Source: Neoroseomonas lacus
Lineage (GTDB): Bacteria > Pseudomonadota > Alphaproteobacteria > Acetobacterales > Acetobacteraceae
DNA length: 64,000 nt
Assembly (NCBI RefSeq): GCF_014644535.1
Contig: NZ_BMKW01000012.1
Location: 62,001 to 126,000 of the forward strand
Direction of reading: 5' to 3'
Positions within the stretch are counted from its first letter, which is position 1. Each line of letters begins with the position of its first letter. This document shows, one piece after another, positions 3,902 through 16,550 of this stretch. The position numbers and the translations under genes are program-made. The notes beneath the pieces were generated by a model. The model did no database searches, was not told the DNA's origin, and worked only from the letters and a program-made list of their open reading frames with translations.

Positions 3902-4567
3902 TTAAGCGGCGGTGAAGCGCGCTGTCGCGCGGGTCTCCCACGACCGCCCGAAGGCGAGGAACAGGCCGACCACGACGAGCGTCATGCCGACATGCCAGAC
4001 CAACGCCTCGGCCGCGCCGTCGAGTTCGTGGAACAGCCACAGCCCCGCTGCCGAGAGCGCGGCGCCGGCGAGCCCGCCCATCGCCGCCACCGGCAGGGGA
4101 CGGATGCCCGCCGCATAGCGCAGCAGCCAGACCAGGGAACCCGACAGCGGAATGCCAAGGCCCAGGATGAAGCCCATGCAGCCCCAGGACACCCCTGGCA
4201 CCAGCGCCTGCGGCCCAATCCGCAGCACGTCGGCCAGGCAACCGGCCCCGAGCGTGCCGACCCACAGCACCGCGGCGGGAACCGGCAGCAACACCCAGCG
4301 GGGTGAGCGATCGGGCAAGGCAAGCTGGAACGCGGCGATCGTCGCCAGCACCCCGGTCGCCGCCGAGGCAAGCCACTGGATCATTTCCTGTGCATCGGCC
4401 AGCCGATCGGCGAGGTCTGGTCGCGGGCCGTGCCAGGCAACCGCCGCCACAATGACCATCAAGGCGAAGGCAAGCCAGGCGGCCGCGCGACGCAGGGGCG
4501 GCGCGAGCCGGTGCACCGGGCGAAGATCGGCGGAGAGGCGAGCGATGAGTTCCTCGGTAGTGGTCAC
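3902..4567 (-). CDS. nrsF: NrsF-family (DUF1109) anti-sigma factor
   Basis: 221 aa, with about six membrane segments after a short soluble N-terminus (TTTEELIARLSADLRPVHRL) that would hold the sigma factor. It starts at a GTG overlapping the sigma stop by GTGA, so the two are translationally coupled. Two cysteines in the membrane part (GAGCLADVL and SWGCMGF) match the pair conserved in NrsF proteins; in Caulobacter such cysteines are needed for the sigmaF response to metal or oxidative stress. Expected role: inner-membrane sequestration of the upstream ECF sigma until stress. The family assignment rests on this topology, the cysteine pair and the sigma neighbour. Confidence 0.82.
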   Translation of the reverse strand: MTTTEELIARLSADLRPVHRLAPPLRRAAAWLAFALMVIVAAVAWHGPRPDLADRLADAQEMIQWLASAATGVLATIAAFQLALPDRSPRWVLLPVPAAVLWVGTLGAGCLADVLRIGPQALVPGVSWGCMGFILGLGIPLSGSLVWLLRYAAGIRPLPVAAMGGLAGAALSAAGLWLFHELDGAAEALVWHVGMTLVVVGLFLAFGRSWETRATARFTAA

Positions 4568-5217
4568 TGTTCGTCCTCCGCACCCAATCGCCGTCGCAGC
4601 GAGCGCAGGGCCCGGTGGGTCGCGACCTTCAATGCGCCAATCGACAGGCCGGAACGGCGTGACGCCTCGGCCAGCGGTAAGTCCTCAAGCTTCGCCAGGC
4701 GCAGCGCCGTGCGCTGGCTTTCCGGCAATTCGGCGACGGCCTCGCGCAGCTGGCGGCCGGCGATACGTTCCTCACCCGTCTCGCCAGCCGGGGCGGCGAG
4801 GGTCTCGGCATGGTCGTCGATCGGGGTTTCCCGTCCCGCCCCGCGGCCGCGCCGGCGCAACCGGTCGACGCAGCGGCGCTCGGCGATGGCGACGATCCAG
4901 GGGCGCAGCGGGCGGTCGGGGTCGTAGGTCGCGATCATGCGGTGGATGGTCAGCAGCGTGTCCTGCACCGCATCCTCGGCTTCGTGCGAATCGCGGATCC
5001 GGCGGCGCGCGATGGCGCGCAGCAGCGGCAGGCAGTCGCGCAGCAGACGGTCATAGGCGCGCGCATCCCCGGCCTGCGCGGCCACCATCCATGCCTCCCA
5101 CTGGCCGTCACTCTCGCCTGCCACGGCGCGCCCCTTATGCTGCGCGCGCACCATAGGACGAACGGGCCGAGCCAAGAAGCGCAGCGGCGGCGCGGGGTAG
5201 CCGAGGGCGGCGCTCAT
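4564..5217 (-). CDS. ECF RNA polymerase sigma factor (SigF-like)
   Basis: 217 aa with sigma region 2 (DRLLRDCLPLLRAIARRRI, then HEAEDAVQDTLLTIHR) and region 4 (LPESQRTALRLAKLEDLPLAEASRRSGLSIGALKV, given here only as its span 165-200). The start at 5217 is chosen because it overlaps the opgC stop by ATGA; an internal ATG at 5154 would give a more usual N-terminus (MVRAQHKG) and cannot be excluded. It is followed immediately by its NrsF-type anti-sigma factor, the arrangement of the stress-responsive sigmaF system of alphaproteobacteria. The coupling to opgC upstream is unusual. Confidence 0.88.
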   Translation of the reverse strand: MSAALGYPAPPLRFLARPVRPMVRAQHKGRAVAGESDGQWEAWMVAAQAGDARAYDRLLRDCLPLLRAIARRRIRDSHEAEDAVQDTLLTIHRMIATYDPDRPLRPWIVAIAERRCVDRLRRRGRGAGRETPIDDHAETLAAPAGETGEERIAGRQLREAVAELPESQRTALRLAKLEDLPLAEASRRSGLSIGALKVATHRALRSLRRRLGAEDEQ

Positions 5218-7119: not shown

Positions 7120-7264
7120 GTTCCTGCCACGCACTCGAGAGGCGTGACCTGCGATCCTCCGTTCTGTCGCGACGGCTTATTCCCGGCAGGTCGTCGCCTG
7201 ACTGACCCTTCCGCAAGGCGGGGTCTTTGGCCCGGCTGGAGCAATCCAGCCGGGCTAATTTTAT
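7120..7264 (+). ncRNA. Candidate structured small RNA ending in a terminator
   Basis: No gene fits 6913-7260 on either strand, yet 7140-7199 folds into a long hairpin: AGGCG (7140-7144) and GACCTGC (7146-7152) pair with GCAGGTC (7186-7192) and CGCCT (7195-7199), with an inner CCGT/ACGG stem (7159-7162 and 7172-7175) inside an asymmetric bulge. Two more hairpins follow, the last being the terminator at 7230-7264. This closing-stem, bubble, apical-hairpin layout would suit a small RNA. No clear -35/-10 pair is visible. The 5' end given is a guess. Confidence 0.35.
7230..7264 (+). terminator. Strong intrinsic terminator hairpin
   Basis: A perfect 10-bp G+C-rich stem, GCCCGGCTGG (7230-7239) with CCAGCCGGGC (7246-7255), loop AGCAAT, followed by TAATTTTAT. 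On the plus strand it would end the DUF1489 transcript or the candidate small RNA. It overlaps the stop codon of the convergent hyfI-like gene at 7261. Confidence 0.75.
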
Positions 7265-7800
7265 GGCGTGGCGCGCCGCGGCGGCGCCTCGGCCTCCAGT
7301 AGCGCCAGCAGCCCTTCCAGTAATTGCTCGGGCGAGGGCGGGCAGCCCGGAATGAGCAGGTCCACCGGCAACACCGCGCCGACGCCGCCATGCACGGCGT
7401 ACGATCCCTTGAACACGCCGCCATCGACCGCGCAGTCCCCGGCGGCGACGACCCAACGCGGTTCCGGCGTGCAGGCGAGGGCGCGCTCCATCGCCTCGGC
7501 CATGTTGCGGCAGGCCGGCCCGGTCACCAGCAGCACGTCGGCATGCTTGGGCGAGGCGACGAAGCGCAGCCCGAATCGCTCGAGGTCGTAGGCGACGTTC
7601 TGCAGCGCGTTCACCTCCAGCTCGCAGCCATTGCAGGAGCCACTGTCGATTTCGCGAATCGACAGGCTGCGGCCGAGCCGGGCGCGCGCCGTTGCCGCCA
7701 GCCGTTCGCCCAGCGCGGCGATGGTCGGCTGCGACAGCGCGGGCGCGGGATCGGTCAATGGCCGGCCGACCAGGGCGCGAGCGAGGCGAGGCCAGAGCAT
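7261..7800 (-). CDS. NuoB/HyfI-like iron-sulfur subunit of hydrogenase-related complex
   Basis: 179 aa small subunit carrying the proximal [4Fe-4S] cluster. Cluster ligands are visible as CNGC (Cys56, Cys59), GDCA (Cys123) and PGCPPSPEQ (Cys153), the pattern of group 4 hydrogenase small subunits and complex I NuoB. An extra cysteine sits at 97 (GPACRN). The ATG at 7800 overlaps the preceding large-subunit stop (TAATG). It is the last gene of the six-gene operon. With the cluster intact but the adjacent nickel site degraded, it probably passes electrons within a membrane oxidoreductase rather than to hydrogen. Confidence 0.9.
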   Translation of the reverse strand: MLWPRLARALVGRPLTDPAPALSQPTIAALGERLAATARARLGRSLSIREIDSGSCNGCELEVNALQNVAYDLERFGLRFVASPKHADVLLVTGPACRNMAEAMERALACTPEPRWVVAAGDCAVDGGVFKGSYAVHGGVGAVLPVDLLIPGCPPSPEQLLEGLLALLEAEAPPRRATP

Positions 7801-9311
7801 TACAGGTCCACCCCCGAATAGGAGCAGTTGAACGATTTGTTGCAGAGCGGGAAGTCCGCGACGATGTTGCCCGCGATCGCTGCTTCCAGCAGCGGCCATT
7901 GCAGCCAGGACGGGTCGCGCAGGAACAGCCCGCGGATCACCCCGCTCTCATCCAGCCGCAGCCAGGCGAAACACTCGCCGCGGAACCCCTCGATCAACGC
8001 ACTGCCTTCACCGGCCAGGGCGGGCAGGGGGGCGAGCGTCTCCCCCGCCGGCAGATCGGCCAGCAGCCGGCGCACTATGCCGATCGAGGCCGCCAGTTCG
8101 GCGACACGGACCCGCACCCGCGCATCGACATCACCGCCGGTCTCGACCGCGATGGTCGGCAACAACCAGTCATAGGGCGCATAGCCCGGCCGCAGCCGCG
8201 CATCGAAACCGCGCCCCGACCCACGCCCGACAAACCCGCCGGCGGCGAAGCGCGCGGCATGGTCGGGGTCGAGGAATCCAGTCCCCACCATCCGATCCTG
8301 CAGGCTGGAATGGCTGTCATAGATGCGCAGCAGCGCCGGCATCTCGGCCTCCACCGCATCGAGCGCGGCCAGGATCGCCGCCGCCCCGCCCGCCGCGATG
8401 TCGGGGGCCACGCCGCCCGGCAGCACGCGGTCCATCATCAGCCGATGCCCAAAGGCCGCCGCGCAGGCGCGCAGCACGCCCTCCCGCAGATACCCGCAGC
8501 GGGCATGCGGGAAGGCGAAGGCCGCATCGTTGCAGATGAAGCCCCAATCATTGAGGTGGTTATGGACGCGCTCCAGCTCCGCCATCACCCCGCGCAGCGC
8601 GACGGCCCGCGGCGGCACCGCCACGCCGAGCGCAGCCTCGACGGCGGCGGCGAAGGCCCAGCCATGCGCCACCGTGGAATCCCCCGACAGCCGCGCCGCG
8701 AAGGCCGCCGCCGCACGCGCCGGCTTGCCAAGCATCAGCGACAGCGTGCCCTTATGCGCATAGCCGAGCCGCGCCTCCAGCCGCACCACCACCTCGCCCT
8801 GGACATGGAAGCGGAAATGGCCGGGTTCGATGACGCCCGCATGGATCGGCCCGACCGGGATCTGGTGGATGCCCTCGCCCTCGACGGGCAGGAATGCCGG
8901 CTGCGGCGCCTCGGCACCGGGCAGCGCGGCGGGCTGGCCAGACATCGGCCCAGCGAGCTCCCACCGCCCATGGTCAAGCCAGGGGCGCAGGTCCACGGCG
9001 TCTTCGGCCGTGAGTCCCCACAGATCACGGATCATGCGCTCGAAACGGATGGCGCCGGGGCGGACAGGAGAGAGCGCGGCATACCGGCCGCCCTCCGCCG
9101 GGGCGGAGGCGAGCAGCACCGCCGCGCTTGCCTCCTCCAGGAAGGCCGCATGCACCATGCCGGGTTCGGCCCAGAGCGCGAGCAGCGCCAGCCCCGGCTC
9201 GGCCAGCAGCGCGGCGGGCAGGCGGGCCCAGGCTTCGGCCGCCAGCAGATAGCGCTCGGCCGGTTGCGCGCCTTGCGGGGCGCCGGCGCGGATGAGGGTG
9301 CTGGCGCTCAT
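7800..9311 (-). CDS. HyfG/NuoCD-like large subunit with degraded Ni-Fe site
   Basis: 503 aa: an N-terminal NuoC-like part (about 1-125) fused to a NuoD/HyfG-like part. In true group 4 hydrogenases the metal centre is held by two CxxC motifs. The first, RxCGxC, is here RLSGDS (Ser209, Ser212); the second, near the C-terminus, is CSYS (Cys496, Ser499). Three of four ligands are therefore serine. Neighbouring landmarks (ARLGYAHKG, ELERVHNHLND) are kept, so this is an intact gene of the Ehr (energy-converting hydrogenase-related) type, not a decaying hydrogenase. ATGA overlap with hyfF. Likely a proton-pumping or quinone-linked module with an unknown electron donor. Confidence 0.9.
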   Translation of the reverse strand: MSASTLIRAGAPQGAQPAERYLLAAEAWARLPAALLAEPGLALLALWAEPGMVHAAFLEEASAAVLLASAPAEGGRYAALSPVRPGAIRFERMIRDLWGLTAEDAVDLRPWLDHGRWELAGPMSGQPAALPGAEAPQPAFLPVEGEGIHQIPVGPIHAGVIEPGHFRFHVQGEVVVRLEARLGYAHKGTLSLMLGKPARAAAAFAARLSGDSTVAHGWAFAAAVEAALGVAVPPRAVALRGVMAELERVHNHLNDWGFICNDAAFAFPHARCGYLREGVLRACAAAFGHRLMMDRVLPGGVAPDIAAGGAAAILAALDAVEAEMPALLRIYDSHSSLQDRMVGTGFLDPDHAARFAAGGFVGRGSGRGFDARLRPGYAPYDWLLPTIAVETGGDVDARVRVRVAELAASIGIVRRLLADLPAGETLAPLPALAGEGSALIEGFRGECFAWLRLDESGVIRGLFLRDPSWLQWPLLEAAIAGNIVADFPLCNKSFNCSYSGVDL

Positions 9312-10744
9312 CCGATCACCTGCGCGGCGGTGGCCAACATGGTCGCCAACCCCAACGGCATGGCGATGCCCAACCCCACGGCGACCAGCAGATGCAGCCA
9401 GACCGGCACCGCCGAGGCTACCTCCCGCCAGCCATTCAGCGCACCGCCGCTGTCGGGTGTCGGTACCCCGAAGCACAGCGCCTGCAGCACGGTGATCAGC
9501 GCCGCCAGCGCCGTGACCATGCCGAGCGCGAGCGTGATGGCGAGCCAGGGCAGCTCCGCCGCCGCCACCGAGAACAGCCGGAATTCCGAGGCGAAGATCA
9601 CGAAGGGCGGCATGCCGGCGATGGCCAGGATGGCGACGGCCAGCCCCCAACCCAGCGCCGGGTGCGTCGCCACCAGCCCGCCGATATCGGCGATCTTCTG
9701 GCTGCCCTTGAGCTGCGCGGCGCGGCCGACGCCGAAGAACACCGCGCTCTTGACCAGCGCATGGCCGATCAGGTGCAGCAGCCCCGCCAGATTCGCCGCC
9801 GGCCCGCCCAGCCCGAAGGCGAAGGCGGCGATGCCCATATGCTCGATGCTCGACCAGGCAAAGAAGCGTCGCGCATCCCGGCGCCGCCACAAGGCCAAGG
9901 CGGCGAGCAGCACCGAAGCCAGGCCGAAGGCCAGCAGGAAGGGGCCCGGCGTGACGGCCTCGGGGTTGGCGCCGACGATCGACTTGGCGCGCAGCACCGC
10001 CAGCATCGCTGCGTTCAGCAACAATCCCGACAGCACGGCGGAGATCGGCACCGGCCCCTCGGCATGGGCATCCGGCAGCCAGGAATGCAGCGGCACCAGC
10101 CCCGCCTTGGTGCCATAGCCCAGCAGCAGGAAGGCGAAGGCGAGGTTCAGCGTCGCCGGGTCGCACCGCGCCGCGACCGCCATCAGCGCCGTCCAGGACA
10201 ACCCGGTCTCCTCGGTCAGCAGCGGCTGCGCGGCGAGGTACAGCACGATGGTCCCGAACAGCGCGAGCGCGATGCCCACCCCGCACAGGATGAAGAATTT
10301 CCACGCCGCCTCGAAGGCCGCCGGCGTGCGGTGCACGGCGACCATCGAGACGGTGGCGAGCGTCGCGATCTCGATCGCCACCCACATCACGCCGAGATTG
10401 TCGGCGAGCAGCGCCAGCGTCTGCGCCCCCATGAAGATCTGATAGGCGGCGTGGTAAGCGCGGCTGCGCCAATGGTCGAAGCCTTCCTGTTCCAGCGTCG
10501 CCGCCGAGAACACCGCCGTGGTCAGCCCGACAAAGGTCGAGACCAGCACGAAGGGCATGTTCAGCACGTCGGTGCGGGTCCAGCCATGCTGCTCGAAGGG
10601 CAGCGCCATCAGTGCCACCGCGAGCAGGAACATCCCCGCACTCACCGCCGCATTCACCACCGTCGCGTGGCGCTGGTTCGGCATCGCCGCCAGCACCACC
10701 GCGCCCGCCCAGGCGAAGAACACGATCACCCATTGCAGGGGCAT
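9308..10744 (-). CDS. hyfF: HyfF-like antiporter-type membrane subunit
   Basis: 478 aa, about fourteen membrane helices, homologous to NuoN/Mrp antiporter subunits that form proton channels. Conserved landmarks include the lysine region GYGTKAGLVPLHSWLPDAHAE (helix 7-8, about residues 210-230) and the later HLIGHALVKSAVFF, both typical of ion-translocating subunits. The ATG overlaps the hyfE stop as TGATG and the stop overlaps hyfG as ATGA. Its intact channel residues suggest the complex still couples to proton or cation movement even though the nickel site is lost. Confidence 0.92.
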   Translation of the reverse strand: MPLQWVIVFFAWAGAVVLAAMPNQRHATVVNAAVSAGMFLLAVALMALPFEQHGWTRTDVLNMPFVLVSTFVGLTTAVFSAATLEQEGFDHWRSRAYHAAYQIFMGAQTLALLADNLGVMWVAIEIATLATVSMVAVHRTPAAFEAAWKFFILCGVGIALALFGTIVLYLAAQPLLTEETGLSWTALMAVAARCDPATLNLAFAFLLLGYGTKAGLVPLHSWLPDAHAEGPVPISAVLSGLLLNAAMLAVLRAKSIVGANPEAVTPGPFLLAFGLASVLLAALALWRRRDARRFFAWSSIEHMGIAAFAFGLGGPAANLAGLLHLIGHALVKSAVFFGVGRAAQLKGSQKIADIGGLVATHPALGWGLAVAILAIAGMPPFVIFASEFRLFSVAAAELPWLAITLALGMVTALAALITVLQALCFGVPTPDSGGALNGWREVASAVPVWLHLLVAVGLGIAMPLGLATMLATAAQVIG

Positions 10745-11412
10745 CAACGACGCTCCCCGCGATGTTCTTCCAGGCTGCCGGTATCGACGGTGTCGAGCCG
10801 TTCGCGGATCTGGAAGGTGATGACGCCGGCGACCATGGCGACCATCAGCACCAGCGCCGCGGTGGACAGTTCCACGACCAGCGGCATGCCGGTGACGCCG
10901 ATGGCGGCGAGGATCAACCCGTTCTCCAGGGACAGCAGCCCGATCACCTGGCTGATCGCGTTGCGCCGCGTGATCATCATCAGCATGCCGAGCAGCACGA
11001 CCGACAGCGCGAGGGCGATGTCCTCGCGCGCCAGCGCCCGCACCCCCTCGGTCGCCGGCAGCACCGCGAGGATGGCGAGCCCGACCAGCCCGACGCCCGC
11101 GATCATCGACGGCCCGATGCCGAGCGCGGTCTCCACCGTGCGGTGCAGGTTCAATTCGCGCACCATCCGGTGCAGCGCGATCGGGATGAGAACGCCCTTG
11201 GCCCCGAAGGCCAGCAGCGCGGTCAGGTACAGCCCCGGCGCGTGCTGCGCATGGGCCTGCCAGGCAGCGGCGAGCGCCAGCAGCGTTCCCTGCATGGCGA
11301 AGGCGTTGATCACCGCCCCGATGCGCCGCTGATACAGCAGAACAAAGGACATCAGCAGCACCGCGCCGCCGAGCAGATGCGCCAGGTCGTAGGTGAGCTG
11401 CCCGAACCTCAC
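10744..11412 (-). CDS. hyfE: HyfE-like membrane subunit
   Basis: 222 aa, close to the usual 216 aa of HyfE, a NuoK-related membrane subunit. The start is a GTG at 11412 overlapping the hyfC stop (GTGA), giving RFGQLTYDLAHLLGG; a much longer open frame upstream is only read-through. Several membrane helices and LSLENGLILAAIGVTGMP (about residues 165-182), a NuoK/HyfE hallmark with a buried glutamate, are present. It lies between hyfC and hyfF in the coupled operon. Confidence 0.9.
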   Translation of the reverse strand: MRFGQLTYDLAHLLGGAVLLMSFVLLYQRRIGAVINAFAMQGTLLALAAAWQAHAQHAPGLYLTALLAFGAKGVLIPIALHRMVRELNLHRTVETALGIGPSMIAGVGLVGLAILAVLPATEGVRALAREDIALALSVVLLGMLMMITRRNAISQVIGLLSLENGLILAAIGVTGMPLVVELSTAALVLMVAMVAGVITFQIRERLDTVDTGSLEEHRGERR

Positions 11413-12368
11413 GTCAGCCCCGTCGAGACGAACAGCAGCACCGCGCCGAGCAGCCCGAGCAGCAAGGCAGCGCCGAGGAATTCCGGCACCCGGAACACCC
11501 GCATCTTGGCGATCGCGCTCTCGAAGGCGGCGAGGCCCAGCGCCAGCCCACCCATCTTCACCGCCCAGGCCGCCAGCCCGACCACCCACCACTGCGGCGC
11601 GGCACCGGCCGGCGCCTGGCCGAGCGGCAGGAATATCGCAGCCAGGAACGCCAGCCACAGCAGCAGCCGCAGGGACGCCGCGTATTCCCACAGCGCGAGG
11701 TGCCGGCCGGAGGCTTCGAGGATCATCGCCTCATGCACCATGGTCAGTTCCAGATGCGTCGAGGGATTGTCGACCGGGATGCGGGCATTCTCGGTCACCG
11801 CCACGGCGAACAGCGCCACCATAGCGAGGCCGAGCGACACGCGCAGCCCCAAGGCACTGTCGCGGAACGCCCCGGCGATGGCATCGAGATTCGTCGTCCC
11901 CGCCAGGATCGCCAGCGACAGCACCGCCACGATCAGCGCCGGTTCGGCGAGCGCGGCGAAGGACATCTCGCGCGACGCGCCAAGACCGCCGAAGGGCGTG
12001 CCGACATCCATCCCCGCCAGCGCCATCGCGACGCGCCCGAGCGCCAGCAGCCCCGCCACCAGGATCAGGTCCGACAGCGGGGCGAAGGCCATCCCCCGCG
12101 CGAAGGAGGGCACCAGCACCGCCGCCGCCATCGCCGCCCCGGCCGCCAGATACGGGGCGGCCAGCGACACCGCGGAGGCATTCTCCGCCATCACCGGCTT
12201 CTTGCGCAGCAGCTTCAGCAGGTCGCGCAGCGGCTGCAGCGGATGCGCCCCGCGCCGGCCCATCATCCGCGCCTTCAGCCAACGCACCACGCCGGTCAGA
12301 ACAGGTGCTGCGGCGAGCATCAGCGCGATGTGCAGCAGTTGCGCCAGGACGGACCAGACCACCGCCAT
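11409..12368 (-). CDS. hyfC: HyfC/NuoH-like membrane subunit
   Basis: 319 aa, about eight membrane helices, homologous to NuoH, HycD and HyfC, which anchor the soluble arm and form the quinone-chamber side of complex I. The cytosolic loop GRRGAHPLQPLRDLLKLLRK near the N-terminus and TENARIPVDNPSTHLELTM (about residues 205-223) are diagnostic, the latter carrying the conserved acidic residues. The start at 12368 follows the hyfB stop by two bases; an upstream overlapping ATG at 12383 is less likely. Confidence 0.92.
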   Translation of the reverse strand: MAVVWSVLAQLLHIALMLAAAPVLTGVVRWLKARMMGRRGAHPLQPLRDLLKLLRKKPVMAENASAVSLAAPYLAAGAAMAAAVLVPSFARGMAFAPLSDLILVAGLLALGRVAMALAGMDVGTPFGGLGASREMSFAALAEPALIVAVLSLAILAGTTNLDAIAGAFRDSALGLRVSLGLAMVALFAVAVTENARIPVDNPSTHLELTMVHEAMILEASGRHLALWEYAASLRLLLWLAFLAAIFLPLGQAPAGAAPQWWVVGLAAWAVKMGGLALGLAAFESAIAKMRVFRVPEFLGAALLLGLLGAVLLFVSTGLT

Positions 12369-12369
12369 G

Positions 12370-14385
12370 CTAATGTGCCCCAAGCCAGGCGAGCAGCGCG
12401 AGCATCAGCACCACCGCCCCGAAGGTCAGGCCGAGGCATTGGCGGATCGACAGCCCGCGCAGCCGCTCCGCCTGTGCCGCCACCGCGTCGCGCCAGCGCG
12501 GGACGGGCCCTTCAAGCGCACTCAGCACCGGGTCGGCGAAGCCGGCCTGCAACACCGCCGCCCGGGTCTCGCCCGGTGCCGGCATCGTCACCCGTTCATG
12601 CGCGCCCAGCAGGCCGGCCCCGAGCATCCGCCGCAGCGGTTGGCCGAAACCGGCGGCGCTCGGCTGGCCGGCGGGGTCGCCGAAGGGGAAATGCGGCGGC
12701 GCGGTGATGAAGCCGCAATCCCAGGCCGGGCCGACCACCACGCCCGCCGGTGCGCGCCGGCGCACGACCCAGACCGCGAGCCCGACCGCCCCGGCGACCA
12801 GCAGCGCGACCGGCACCGGCCAATACCGCGCGCCCCCCTCGGCCGCGCCGATCGCGAACCAGCCGGCCTGCGGTGCCGTGCTGCCCACCATCAGACGCAG
12901 CGCCGGTTCCGCTAGGTCGAGCATGACCCCCGGCAGCAGCCCTAGCAGCACGGTCAGCCCGGCCGGCAGCAACAGGGCATATTGCGCGGCGCCGGTGCTC
13001 TCCTCCGCCCCCGCCGCGCGTGGCGTGCGCGACCGGCCGAGAAACACCAGCCCCCAGAAGCGCACCATCGCCGCCGCCGCCAGCGCCGCCGCCAGTGCCG
13101 CCAGCGCGGTCGCCGCGGCGACCCCCATCTGGAAGGCGATGTCGCCGACCCGCCAGGCCGCGAGCAACGCCTGCAACAACAGCCATTCCGAGGCGAAGCC
13201 CGAGAGCGGTGGCAGCGAGGCGGCGGCCGCCACGCCGGCCAGCGCCGCCCAGGCGGTCACCGGCATGCGGTGGATCAGCCCGCCCAGCCGGTCGAGCCGA
13301 CGCGACAGCGCGCCATGCAGAACCTCGCCCGCCACCAGGAACAGCAGCGTCTTAAACACGGCGTGGTTCAGCGTGTGCAGCAGCGCCGCCGCCGCGGCCA
13401 GCGCCGCCAGCGCCGGCAGGTCCGCCCCGCGAAACGCCAGCGCCAGGCCGAGGCCCATGGCGATCAGCCCGATATTCTCGATGGTCGAACAGGCGAGCAG
13501 GACCTTGGTGTCCTCCTCAAGGTTCGCCCGCAGCGCGCCGATCACCGCCGAGGCCGCGCCGAGGGCGATCAGCGGCGCCCCCAGCCAGAAAGGCTGCGCC
13601 GGCCCCATCAGGTCGAAGGCGAAGCGCGCCAGCACATACAGCGCGACCTTGGTCATCGCCCCGGACATCACCGCCGAGACATGGCTCGGCGCCGCCGGAT
13701 GGGCGAGCGGCAGCCAGACATGCAGCGGCGCGATGCCAGCCTTCGACCCCGCCCCGGCCAGCACCAGGGCGAGCACGGCGGCGGCACGGGCGCCCTCGGG
13801 CGGGGTGTCGCGCAGCGCGGCGAAGGCGACATCCCCCGCGCCACCCGCCAGCACGCCGAAGGCCAGCACCAGGCACAGCCCGCCAAACCCCGCGAATCCT
13901 AGATACATCCGCGCCGCGCGGCGGTTCTCGGCCTGCGCATGGTCGTGCGCGACCAGCGCCCAGGAGGCGACGGACATCGCCTCGAACCCCAGCAGCAGGG
14001 TGAAGCCGTCCGCCGCGAGGATGGTCAGCACCATGCCGGCGACGAAGACCGGCCAGGGCGCCAGCTCGCGCGGCGCCACCGGCCCATGGGCGCCGCCGAA
14101 GGCGAACAGCCCGGCGCAGCCGACCGACAGCCCCAGCGGCAACAGGAACCAGGCCGAGAGCGGATCGAGCGCCAGCCGCGCCGGCCCCCAGGGCGGCCCG
14201 AAGGGCAGGTTCAGCGCCGAAGGCCCGTCCAGCAGCCCCGCCACCCCGCCGGCCACCAGCCCCAGGCCGGCCAGTGCCGTCGCGCCGAAGACCAGCCTTG
14301 CCCCCGATGGGCGGCCGGCCAGCGGCACAGCCACCGCGCCGAGGGCGGCCAGCAACCCGACCAGCAATGCCAGGGCCGTCAGCAT
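12370..14385 (-). CDS. hyfB: HyfB/NuoL-like antiporter-type membrane subunit
   Basis: 671 aa, the first gene of the operon and the largest membrane subunit, about sixteen helices, related to NuoL and MrpA. It keeps the channel motifs: the glutamate region LGFEAMSVASW, the lysines of GAGSKAGIAPLHVWLP and SGAMTKVALYVLAR, and the histidine/lysine of LLHTLNHAVFKTLLF. The start chosen (MLTALALLVGLL) removes a poorly conserved upstream extension to 14463; neither start has a strong ribosome binding site. There is no HyfA, HyfH (NuoI-like ferredoxin), HyfD or maturation protease gene, so the operon has the six-gene make-up of Ehr complexes. Confidence 0.9.
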   Translation of the reverse strand: MLTALALLVGLLAALGAVAVPLAGRPSGARLVFGATALAGLGLVAGGVAGLLDGPSALNLPFGPPWGPARLALDPLSAWFLLPLGLSVGCAGLFAFGGAHGPVAPRELAPWPVFVAGMVLTILAADGFTLLLGFEAMSVASWALVAHDHAQAENRRAARMYLGFAGFGGLCLVLAFGVLAGGAGDVAFAALRDTPPEGARAAAVLALVLAGAGSKAGIAPLHVWLPLAHPAAPSHVSAVMSGAMTKVALYVLARFAFDLMGPAQPFWLGAPLIALGAASAVIGALRANLEEDTKVLLACSTIENIGLIAMGLGLALAFRGADLPALAALAAAAALLHTLNHAVFKTLLFLVAGEVLHGALSRRLDRLGGLIHRMPVTAWAALAGVAAAASLPPLSGFASEWLLLQALLAAWRVGDIAFQMGVAAATALAALAAALAAAAMVRFWGLVFLGRSRTPRAAGAEESTGAAQYALLLPAGLTVLLGLLPGVMLDLAEPALRLMVGSTAPQAGWFAIGAAEGGARYWPVPVALLVAGAVGLAVWVVRRRAPAGVVVGPAWDCGFITAPPHFPFGDPAGQPSAAGFGQPLRRMLGAGLLGAHERVTMPAPGETRAAVLQAGFADPVLSALEGPVPRWRDAVAAQAERLRGLSIRQCLGLTFGAVVLMLALLAWLGAH

Positions 14386-14581: not shown

Positions 14582-15133
14582 ATGCGCGCATTGCTCGCCT
14601 TCAGCCGTGCCGTAGACGCGGTGAACGAACGCTTCGGCCGGGTCGCCGACTGGATGGTGCTGGGCGCCTGCGTCGTCAGCGCCGGCAATGCGCTGAGCCG
14701 CTATAGCCTGTCATGGTCCTCCAATGCCTGGCTCGAGGCGCAGTGGTACCTCTTCGCTGGCACGGTGATGCTCGGCGCCGCCTATACCCTCAATCGCAAC
14801 CAACATGTCCGGGTCGACCTGGTCTATGGCAGCGTCTCGCCGCGTGCCCGGCTGTGGATCGATGTCTTCGGCATCATCTTCTTCCTGCTGCCGGGCATGC
14901 TGCTGCTGGTCTGGATGACCTGGCCGTTCTTTTGGGAATCCTTCATCCGCGACGAAGGCTCGCCCAATGCCGGCGGGCTGATCCGCTGGCCGGTAAAGGT
15001 GCTGCTGCCGCTCGGCTTCGCGCTGGTCAGCATCCAGGGCCTGTCGGAACTCGTGAAACGTATCGCCGCGCTGCGCGGCATCGACGACCCGGCGACGGCG
15101 CATCTCGCCGAATACCACCGGCCGGAGCAGTAA
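14582..15133 (+). CDS. dctQ: TRAP transporter small permease (DctQ)
   Basis: 183 aa with four membrane helices. Landmarks are the N-terminal helix around WMVLGACVVSAGNALSRY, the LEAQWYLFAGTVMLGAAY segment and the following NQHVRVDLVY, all typical of DctQ, which stabilises the large permease in the inner membrane. It is divergent from the hydrogenase-related operon across about 195 bases and lies four bases before dctM. No extracytoplasmic binding-protein gene (dctP or TAXI type) accompanies it here, so the substrate is unknown, although carboxylates are usual. Confidence 0.9.
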   Translation: MRALLAFSRAVDAVNERFGRVADWMVLGACVVSAGNALSRYSLSWSSNAWLEAQWYLFAGTVMLGAAYTLNRNQHVRVDLVYGSVSPRARLWIDVFGIIFFLLPGMLLLVWMTWPFFWESFIRDEGSPNAGGLIRWPVKVLLPLGFALVSIQGLSELVKRIAALRGIDDPATAHLAEYHRPEQ

Positions 15134-15137
15134 GCCC

Positions 15138-16550
15138 ATGCTGAGTCTCGAGATCATGCCGCCGCTGATGTTCGGCGGGCTGGTCGTCTTCCTGCTGCTG
15201 GGCTTCCCGGTGGCGTTTTCGCTGTCGGCGGTCGGCCTGTTCTTCGGCTTCATCTCGATCGAGATGGGCTTTTTCACCACGGCTTATCTTGGCAACCTGC
15301 CGCTACGCGTCTTCGGCATCCTGTCAAATGAGGTGCTGCTGGCGATTCCGTTCTTCACCCTGATGGGCGCGGTGCTGGAACGATGCGGTCTCGCCGAGGA
15401 CCTGTTGGAAGGCACCGGCCAGCTGTTCGGCAAGATCCCGGGCGGGCTCGCCTATGCCGTGGTGCTGGTGGGCGCGGTGCTCGGCGCGATCACCGGCACG
15501 GTGGCCGCCTCGGTCATCGCCATGGGCATGATCTCCCTGCCGGTGATGATGCGCTACGGCTACGACATGCGCATCGCGACCGGCGTCATCGCGGCCTCGG
15601 GCACCATCGCGCAGCTGATCCCGCCCTCGCTGGTGCTGATCGTCCTCGGCGACCAGCTCGGCAAGTCGGTGGGCGACATGTATGCCGGCGCGATCGGCCC
15701 CTCGATCCTGCAGGTGTCGCTGTTCCTGGCCTTCATCGGCCTGGTCAGCCTGGTCTCGCCGCAGAAGGTGCCGCCGCTGCCGCCCGAGGCGCGGATGGTG
15801 CGCGGCTGGCCGCTGTACTGGAAGGTGCTGAAGGGCATGGTGCCCTCGCTGGTGCTGATGTTCCTCGTGCTCGGCACCATCTTCCTCGGCCTCGCCACGC
15901 CGACCGAGGCGGGCGCCATGGGCGCGATGGGCGCGATCCTGATCGCCATCGTCAATGGCCGCTTCACCTTCGCCCTGCTGCGCGAGGCGATGGCCAATAC
16001 AGGGCGCATCACCTCGATGGTGCTGTTCATCCTGATCGGCGCGACGGTGTTCTCTCTGGTGTTCCAGGGCGTCGACGGCAGCCGATGGATCGAACACCTG
16101 CTGTCGCACCTGCCCGGCGGTCAAACCGGCTTCCTCATCTTCGTCAACGTCTTCGTGTTCTTCCTGGCGTTCTTCCTCGACTTCTTCGAGATCGCCTTCA
16201 TCGTGGTGCCGCTGCTCGCCCCTGTGGCGGCGAAGCTCGACATCAACCTGGTGTGGTTCGGCGTGCTGTTGTGCGTGAACCTGCAGACCTCCTTCATGCA
16301 CCCGCCCTTTGGCTTCGCGCTGTTCTACCTGCGCGGCGTGGCACCCAAGGAAGTGCTGACCAAGGACATCTACTGGGGCGCGCTGCCCTGGCTGTGCCTG
16401 CAGCTGATCATCGTCGGCGTCGTCATCACCTTCCCGCAGACCGTGACCTACTGGATCGAGCGTGGCCCGGGGGTGGACCCGTCCACCGTGCACATCGAGG
16501 TCCCGATGCCGGACAATTCGGATGACGGCGCGGTGCCGGTGTTCCGATGA
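15138..16550 (+). CDS. dctM: TRAP transporter large permease (DctM)
   Basis: 470 aa, about twelve membrane helices, the ion-coupled channel of a TRAP carboxylate transporter. Typical segments are GAVLGAITGTVAASVIAMG, LIPPSLVLIVLGDQ and LGLATPTEAGAMGAMGA (the PTEAGA motif). The C-terminus, rich in charged residues (EVPMPDNSDDGAVPVFR), is a cytosolic or periplasmic tail. It is co-transcribed with dctQ. It is followed by about 420 bases without a protein gene that hold two repeat units. Confidence 0.93.
   Translation: MLSLEIMPPLMFGGLVVFLLLGFPVAFSLSAVGLFFGFISIEMGFFTTAYLGNLPLRVFGILSNEVLLAIPFFTLMGAVLERCGLAEDLLEGTGQLFGKIPGGLAYAVVLVGAVLGAITGTVAASVIAMGMISLPVMMRYGYDMRIATGVIAASGTIAQLIPPSLVLIVLGDQLGKSVGDMYAGAIGPSILQVSLFLAFIGLVSLVSPQKVPPLPPEARMVRGWPLYWKVLKGMVPSLVLMFLVLGTIFLGLATPTEAGAMGAMGAILIAIVNGRFTFALLREAMANTGRITSMVLFILIGATVFSLVFQGVDGSRWIEHLLSHLPGGQTGFLIFVNVFVFFLAFFLDFFEIAFIVVPLLAPVAAKLDINLVWFGVLLCVNLQTSFMHPPFGFALFYLRGVAPKEVLTKDIYWGALPWLCLQLIIVGVVITFPQTVTYWIERGPGVDPSTVHIEVPMPDNSDDGAVPVFR

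Follow-up and report, generated by a model that had tools for sequence, protein, structure and literature searches.

What becomes of a complex built on the plan of a membrane-bound [NiFe] hydrogenase when the ligands of its nickel site are gone? The question is raised by six genes of Neoroseomonas lacus (assembly GCF_014644535.1), read on the minus strand from position 14385 to 7261 of a 64,000-nucleotide stretch of contig NZ_BMKW01000012.1, here called the window. They run hyfB-C-E-F-G-I, with every start codon either overlapping the stop before it or abutting on it, and are named hyqB to hyqI below. A first-pass annotation, made from the letters alone, had seen in them six coupled Hyf homologues of the Ehr group with serines in place of nickel ligands. 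Coordinates as well as Pfam and NCBIfam matches agree with the six homologues, all proteins matching the expected families, several of them under the NCBIfam cut-offs. The Ehr group is defined by subunits like those of group 4 hydrogenases, combined with Mrp-like antiporters and missing the Ni/Fe-binding residues (PMC6349859, PMC10284858, PMC10432482). A large subunit without Ni/Fe ligands and two antiporter-like subunits, HyqB and HyqF, are both found here, so that by sequence the complex fits this group, and its predicted gene set equals that of the Hyq system of Azorhizobium caulinodans. Such a Hyq-type Ehr complex would probably be a redox-coupled ion pump working without NiFe. Another redox job than that of a hydrogenase is most likely, because all ligand residues are lost and no HypD gene was found in the genome.

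The large subunit, HyqG (503 residues, positions 7800..9311, minus strand), resembles both a NuoC-NuoD fusion and the large subunit of hydrogenases. Its best match among Protein Data Bank sequences is HycE (8.5e-44) of Escherichia coli formate hydrogenlyase (FHL), and Foldseek also ranks HycE first (7z0s_E, query-normalized TM-score 0.79), NuoCD coming next. The first former ligand motif, Ser-Gly-Asp-Ser at codons 209-212 (8676..8687, minus strand), stands opposite the CGIC of HycE; RLSGDS aligns with RVCGIC and places Ser209 and Ser212 on both Cys positions of the CxxC, as had been read from the letters. The second, Cys-Ser-Tyr-Ser-Gly at codons 496-500 (7812..7826, minus strand), stands opposite Pro-Cys-Tyr-Ser-Cys. 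Here the C terminus aligns without gaps when profile hidden Markov models of the family are compared with those of HycE/HyfG and of NuoD, and a MAFFT alignment gives the same register: KSFNCSYSGVDL pairs with GSLDPCYSCTDR, KSFNCSYSGVD with GSLDPCYSCTD (HycE/HyfG) and GSIDFVMSDVD (NuoD), and Cys531 and Cys534 of HycE correspond to Ser497 and Gly500. All four ligand positions are lost, being occupied by Ser209, Ser212, Ser497 and Gly500. The first-pass annotation had taken Cys496 and Ser499 of CSYS as the second ligand pair. The letters are right, but Cys496 stands where HycE has the Pro of DPC, and Ser499 matches the Ser that the two HycE cysteines enclose. The annotation's argument from the retention of one cysteine and an ordered Cys-to-Ser change fails because its register was off by one residue in this motif; the misalignment that it had itself named as a danger affects the second motif and not the first.

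Conservation was counted over 81 family sequences including that of the window (74 at 90% and 45 at 70% redundancy), leaving out exact duplicates, the fragments L080 and L082, the divergent L091-L094, and eight hydrogenase and two NuoD rows that served for comparison. Position 209 is Ser in 79 of the 81, position 212 is Ser in 67 (Thr in nine, Met in three, Ala in two), position 497 is Ser in 76 and position 500 is Gly in all. Position 496 is Cys in 63, Gly in eight (even in the congener L015), Leu in seven, Ala in two and Pro in one. A CxxC pair occurs at neither motif in any of the 81. HyqG ends at position 503 and so lacks the C-terminal extension on which a maturation protease would act; none of the 81 has such an extension. 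Among the four former ligand positions, the sole Cys in the whole set is that of L100 (7926-9381), at position 209 (RSCGDS). Large subunits that resemble those of hydrogenases but diverge further are encoded in four other genomes of the same bacterial family (L091, 6955-8347; L092, 7104-8544; L093; L094, 7168-8098, minus), with RINAVDS or RINALDS and SFGxLxTGVDL at the ligand positions, and RIDATRC in L094; HypD gave no match in these four genomes, three of which measure 2-2.5 Mb. By a quick tree method, Hyq-type sequences split from the hydrogenase and NuoD rows with a Shimodaira–Hasegawa-like approximate likelihood ratio of 100, at a point where long branches meet, and L091-L094 fall inside the Hyq-type part by very long branches.

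Around the former ligands another set of residues is kept. Asp211, Asn495, Gly500, Asp502, His252, His289, Asp294, Arg363, Glu405 and Arg444 are invariant (81/81), and Lys492 and Glu162 are each present in 80 of the 81. Where HyqG has Asp211, all eight hydrogenase rows have Ile and the two NuoD rows Leu or Val; where it has Asn495, all ten comparison rows have Asp. Asp262 is common to HyqG and the two NuoD rows, not to the hydrogenase rows. When the pocket is mapped from the FHL structure paper (PMC9474812), the β1-β2 Glu (HycE Glu193) is kept as Glu162, the canopy Arg (Arg478) as Arg444 and the proton path His284/Glu437/Arg395 as His252/Glu405/Arg363; Ser283 of HycE is Asn251, an Asn maintained in the family and reported by the same paper for complex I too. 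FHL-1 and FHL-2 of E. coli thus share with the N. lacus complex fold, subunit homology, β1-β2 Glu and canopy Arg, whereas the latter has no Cys ligands, no C-terminal extension, no HyfA, HyfD or HyfH in the operon and no HypD, and has exchanged the canopy Asp for Asn. Complex I shares a homologous core (NuoB, C, D, H, L and M), but here the operon has no NADH module or NuoI, the quinone His and Tyr are absent by comparison with the two NuoD rows, and the small subunit has a CxxC (78/78) where complex I has tandem Cys. The genome also encodes, at another place (G000:C7), a NuoD like that of complex I. The putative HyqG site, akin to those of hydrogenase and complex I, is identical with neither and represents a third state.

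That all four ligands are lost is what would be expected of a functionless hydrogenase operon in decay. Such a reading is scarcely credible for six open frames that keep a ratio of non-synonymous to synonymous substitution rates of 0.10-0.30 (six genes against five relatives), and it was rejected on that ratio, on the occurrence of HyqG in all 35 of the genus genomes examined (split across contigs in two) and on invariance of the new residues in 81 of 81 sequences. The order B, C, E, F, G, I is the same in the complete loci compared, for example L068, L072 and L104-L109. The predicted site is refitted and not decayed, because Asp211, Asn495 and Gly500 are invariant, the proton-path residues are kept, selection is purifying and every sampled genome of the genus retains the gene; refitting, which had been argued from the one cysteine, stands on these other grounds.

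Neither mark of a group 4 [NiFe] hydrogenase that was examined, the four Cys ligands and a HypD gene in the genome, is found in N. lacus. HypD had no match genome-wide (G000, 97% complete), which agrees with that part of the earlier claim that HypA-F and protease genes are missing; the search covered HypD alone among these genes. Among the 35 genomes of the genus, seven of them less than 90% complete, HypD was not matched in 34, and the one positive genome, G011, has a canonical NiFe hydrogenase encoded on the same contig, HypD and this enzyme lying about 3 kb apart. No other NiFe hydrogenase was detected in 19 of the 20 genus genomes searched, where the only PF00374 match was a weak one to HyqG. 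Single absences are weak evidence because several sampled genomes are incomplete. Taken together, the lack of HypD (34/35) or of another NiFe hydrogenase (19/20) means that H2 chemistry in such genomes, should it exist, could not be that of a standard NiFe enzyme.

How electrons would reach the refitted pocket is suggested by the small subunit, HyqI (179 residues, 7261..7800, minus strand), a NuoB/MbhJ-like protein with one predicted [4Fe-4S] cluster (Pfam Oxidored_q6 1.3e-32; MbhJ 6.8e-35) that matches MbhJ and HycG ahead of NuoB. Its cluster ligands, described from the start as intact, are so: Cys56 and Cys59 (forming the CxxC), Cys123 and Cys153 are present in all 78 aligned sequences. Two further cysteines, Cys97 and Cys110, are poorly kept (Cys in 18 and 27 of the 78). 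No gene for NuoE, F or G, NuoI, HyfA, HyfD or HyfH occurs among the six abutting genes, and the gene overlaps leave no space between them for HyfH, which confirms the annotated lack of a NuoI/HyfH ferredoxin subunit. With no HyfH or NuoI gene in the operon, the face of the HyqI cluster is probably open.

Mbs and Mbx complexes have an extra two-cluster ferredoxin-like subunit and reduce sulfane sulfur; for the Mbs of Pyrococcus, direct reduction of a small substrate at the small-subunit cluster has been proposed. Transferred to the present case, a small substrate would be reduced at the HyqI cluster itself, HyqG serving as the substrate pocket. A metal-free large subunit beside a hydrogenase-type cluster, the closeness of HyqI to MbhJ and HycG rather than NuoB, and the polar, near-invariant pocket formed by Asp211, Asn495, Lys492 and Glu162 would suit such a reaction. 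MbsL and MbsJ (6u8y), however, are distant matches only (1.8e-10 and 1.1e-18), and no gene for a substrate or partner is linked, which makes this mechanism rather unlikely; nor is a gene for the extra ferredoxin-like subunit present among the six.

The membrane arm accounts for the remaining four genes. HyqB (671 residues, 12370..14385, minus strand) is an antiporter subunit of NuoL/M type (Pfam Proton_antipo_M 3.6e-42; NCBIfam hydrogenase 4 subunit B 7.5e-173, below cut-off), and HyqF (479 residues, 9308..10747, minus strand) is a second antiporter-like subunit (NCBIfam hydrogenase 4 subunit F 3.7e-164, above cut-off; Pfam 3.8e-45), its start being a TTG as given with ATG as the very next codon. 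In alignment, both keep the Glu of transmembrane helix 5, the Lys of helix 7, one more Lys and the Glu of helix 12, which we take to be the channel residues. HyqC is NuoH-like (at most 324 residues, 11409..12383, minus strand; Pfam NADHdh 1.5e-31), starting at TTG as given with an ATG five codons further in; its best solved relative is HycD of FHL (8.3e-32), followed by the membrane-bound hydrogenase subunit 6cfw_M (2.5e-12). The NuoH loop PEAEQEL is PSTHLELTMV in HyqC, with a three-residue insertion, unlike in E. coli HyfC and HycD. The lysines and glutamates first described as kept throughout the membrane subunits are thus kept in HyqB and HyqF, and the glutamates of HyqC only in part. HyqE (222 residues, GTG start, 10744..11412, minus strand) is a small membrane protein whose C-terminal half is NuoK-like, with two matches below cut-off (NCBIfam hydrogenase 4 membrane subunit 3.6e-17; Pfam Oxidored_q2 1.5e-4).

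A redox-driven pump is supported by the parts in combination: one predicted cluster, an adjoining pocket, a subunit of NuoH type, and channel residues in both antiporter-like subunits. It would follow the stripped, six-subunit plan of a group 4 hydrogenase in which a metal-free polar pocket has replaced the NiFe site. The single [4Fe-4S] cluster of HyqI would relay electrons between a soluble low-potential carrier, at a guess a ferredoxin-like protein, bound at the exposed face of this subunit, and an acceptor in the HyqG pocket, which may be a quinone of the membrane or some other small molecule. By way of HyqC, HyqE and both antiporter-like subunits, this reaction would be linked to the movement of protons, which could run either way. 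The pairing of ferredoxin with quinone within this scheme is tentative, and more doubtful than the pump as such.

Several observations weigh against the pump, beginning with its acceptor. The position of the β1-β2 quinone His (Asp192 in HycE, a place taken by that His in complex I according to PMC9474812) is Ile161 in HyqG, and the canopy Asp (HycE Asp529), which the same paper describes as strictly conserved and whose mutation impairs quinone reduction by complex I, is Asn495 in all 81 sequences. His186 had been considered as the quinone His and was rejected, the paper placing that residue on the β1-β2 loop, here at Ile161. Gly210 aligns with the second quinone residue, which we take to be Tyr87 in Thermus NuoD numbering. 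With these residues replaced, a canonical quinone site is unsupported. A complex I-like quinone reductase with a different quinone geometry, fed by ferredoxin or flavodoxin, would be one form of the favoured explanation; HyqG can be aligned with NuoD, and HyqC with NuoH, along much of the chain, and the ion-path residues are kept, but the equivalents of His38 and Tyr87 and the canopy Asp are replaced and the chamber-facing loop of HyqC is unlike that of NuoH, which makes this particular form on balance unlikely. In the AlphaFold model, HycE is the best match for the whole fold and the pocket (135-187, 479-503) has a predicted local distance difference test score below 50, so that no pocket geometry is claimed. 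Proton movement is an assumption based on homology. When flanking frames of at least 100 residues were clustered for 19 loci that do not belong to the Roseomonas-type group (in some the flanks were short), no gene next to the cluster was found to be common to most of them, and the electron donor is thus unsupported. Only three clusters extended to three or more loci; named by eye, they were an ATP-binding cassette ATPase (six), an XRE-type regulator (six) and a flavoprotein dehydrogenase (three). The small regulator gene lies near the operon in L073, L074, L078, L083, L086 and L104, and in L074 (4515-4838) 12 bases separate its end from the hyqB match.

The other evidence on the opposing side concerns hydrogen. 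In A. caulinodans, hyqRBCEFGI was published as the Hyq 'endo-hydrogenase' (PMC2650096, PMC3357923), an H2:quinone oxidoreductase that would hold its NiFe site by other ligands. The six structural subunits and their order are the same, HyqG has 504 residues there and 503 here, and the two systems agree in lacking a CxxC pair, in the NuoC-NuoD fusion and in a small subunit with CxxC and two Cys; the alignment represents the A. caulinodans protein by a relative from Rhodopseudomonas palustris (L072, 54% identity), a species listed as hyq-positive in the Hyq paper. At 20 µM O2, H2 release rose about 15-fold when hyq was deleted (PMC3357923), and in a hupSL deletion background the loss of hyq lowered microaerobic H2 output from 61,000 to 14,000 (table 2 of the same paper), while the high output persisted in a nifK hupSL strain. 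These are phenotypes in vivo, without cell-free activity: the authors, who had no cell-free assay at hand, called a NiFe site 'uncertain, if not unlikely' (PMC3357923). A close homologue with demonstrated NiFe activity, which had been named as what would overturn the first reading, is approached by this case and not reached. The same authors stressed Cys 258, 491 and 497 of HyqG as conserved; Cys260, Cys490 and Cys496 match them here by spacing only, are Cys in 71, 61 and 63 of the 81 sequences and hence are not family-wide, and 14 of the 81 have neither Cys490 nor Cys496. The Azorhizobium operon requires NifA (PMC2650096, PMC3357923), and the carriers listed in the Hyq paper are nitrogen fixers only. 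Membership in a nif regulon fails to extend here, nifD being above cut-off in none of the 35 genus genomes and in 11 of 63 phylum carriers; TIGR01282 has weak matches in 28 of the 35, below the cut-off and by that measure not nifD. Besides the lack of nifD in the genus and of HypD in N. lacus, the locus differs from Azorhizobium in that the next upstream gene is a divergent dctQ, not hyqR.

The phylum sample speaks on both sides. A Hyq-type large subunit, defined by a match at E 2.5e-50 or better, is carried by 63 of 398 genomes; not counted were matches without the family motifs (G401, 4.9e-48; G096, 3.8e-58, 30%; G351, 1.0e-54; G419, 3.2e-54) and hydrogenase matches of 28-31%. HypD, above cut-off in 93 of 94 matched genomes, is somewhat commoner in Hyq carriers than in other genomes (22/63 versus 71/335, Fisher p 0.023), as is nifD (11/63 versus 29/335, p 0.041), both without correction for kinship. 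Yet 41 of the 63 carriers, like 34 of 35 in the genus, have no HypD match, and all 22 HypD-positive carriers also have a separate, stronger PF00374 match. A separate NiFe hydrogenase was called at PF00374 E < 1e-12, a line set after the values were seen (weakest above it 8.7e-16, strongest below it 6.9e-10); both CxxC motifs and a second locus were seen in the four of the 22 whose letters were checked. No separate NiFe hydrogenase was found in 39 of the 41 HypD-negative carriers, the other two, G106 and G251, running contrary to the pattern with a canonical hydrogenase whose CxxC letters were checked. HypD follows canonical NiFe enzymes, because 22 of 22 HypD-positive against two of 41 HypD-negative carriers have a separate NiFe hydrogenase. 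On these grounds an H2:quinone oxidoreductase with a NiFe site is improbable, and the redox pump without NiFe is preferred.

The closest named genomes are Neoroseomonas, Falsiroseomonas and Roseomonas. The TRAP (tripartite ATP-independent periplasmic) transporter genes dctQ and dctM (14582-16550) start divergently from hyqB, and the other flank holds a DUF1489 gene and an OpgC-like gene. Further off (3902-5217), a sigma-70-type gene resembling extracytoplasmic function sigma factors adjoins an NrsF anti-sigma gene. No formate dehydrogenase gene lies beside the operon among the genes scanned; published Ehr examples, which come from other phyla, include some proposed to pair with that enzyme.

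What is known already is the Hyq/Ehr kind of complex; what is new is its genus-wide presence with HypD in one of 35 genomes only and nifD above cut-off in none, and among the matches listed for Roseomonas with hydrogenase 4 in the literature the word Roseomonas is absent. The function of Ehr complexes is stated as unknown in PMC10284858 and PMC10432482, and the available text of PMC2650096 and PMC3357923 does not square the hydrogenase claim for Hyq with the missing ligands. Were one to accept the Azorhizobium deletion data as they stand, and were the same activity present in genomes without HypD, H2 exchange without nickel would follow. It is very improbable that H2 exchange, or another low-potential reaction, proceeds without nickel, the Hyp pathway or any large-subunit Cys ligand at a site made up of the near-invariant Glu162, Asp211, Lys492, Asn495 and Arg444 beside one [4Fe-4S] cluster; if true, the complex I superfamily would include a kind of catalytic site that is new. 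Mutation can be aimed directly at the invariant residues of the pocket, and the genus offers a clean setting in which the hydrogenase question for Hyq may be decided.

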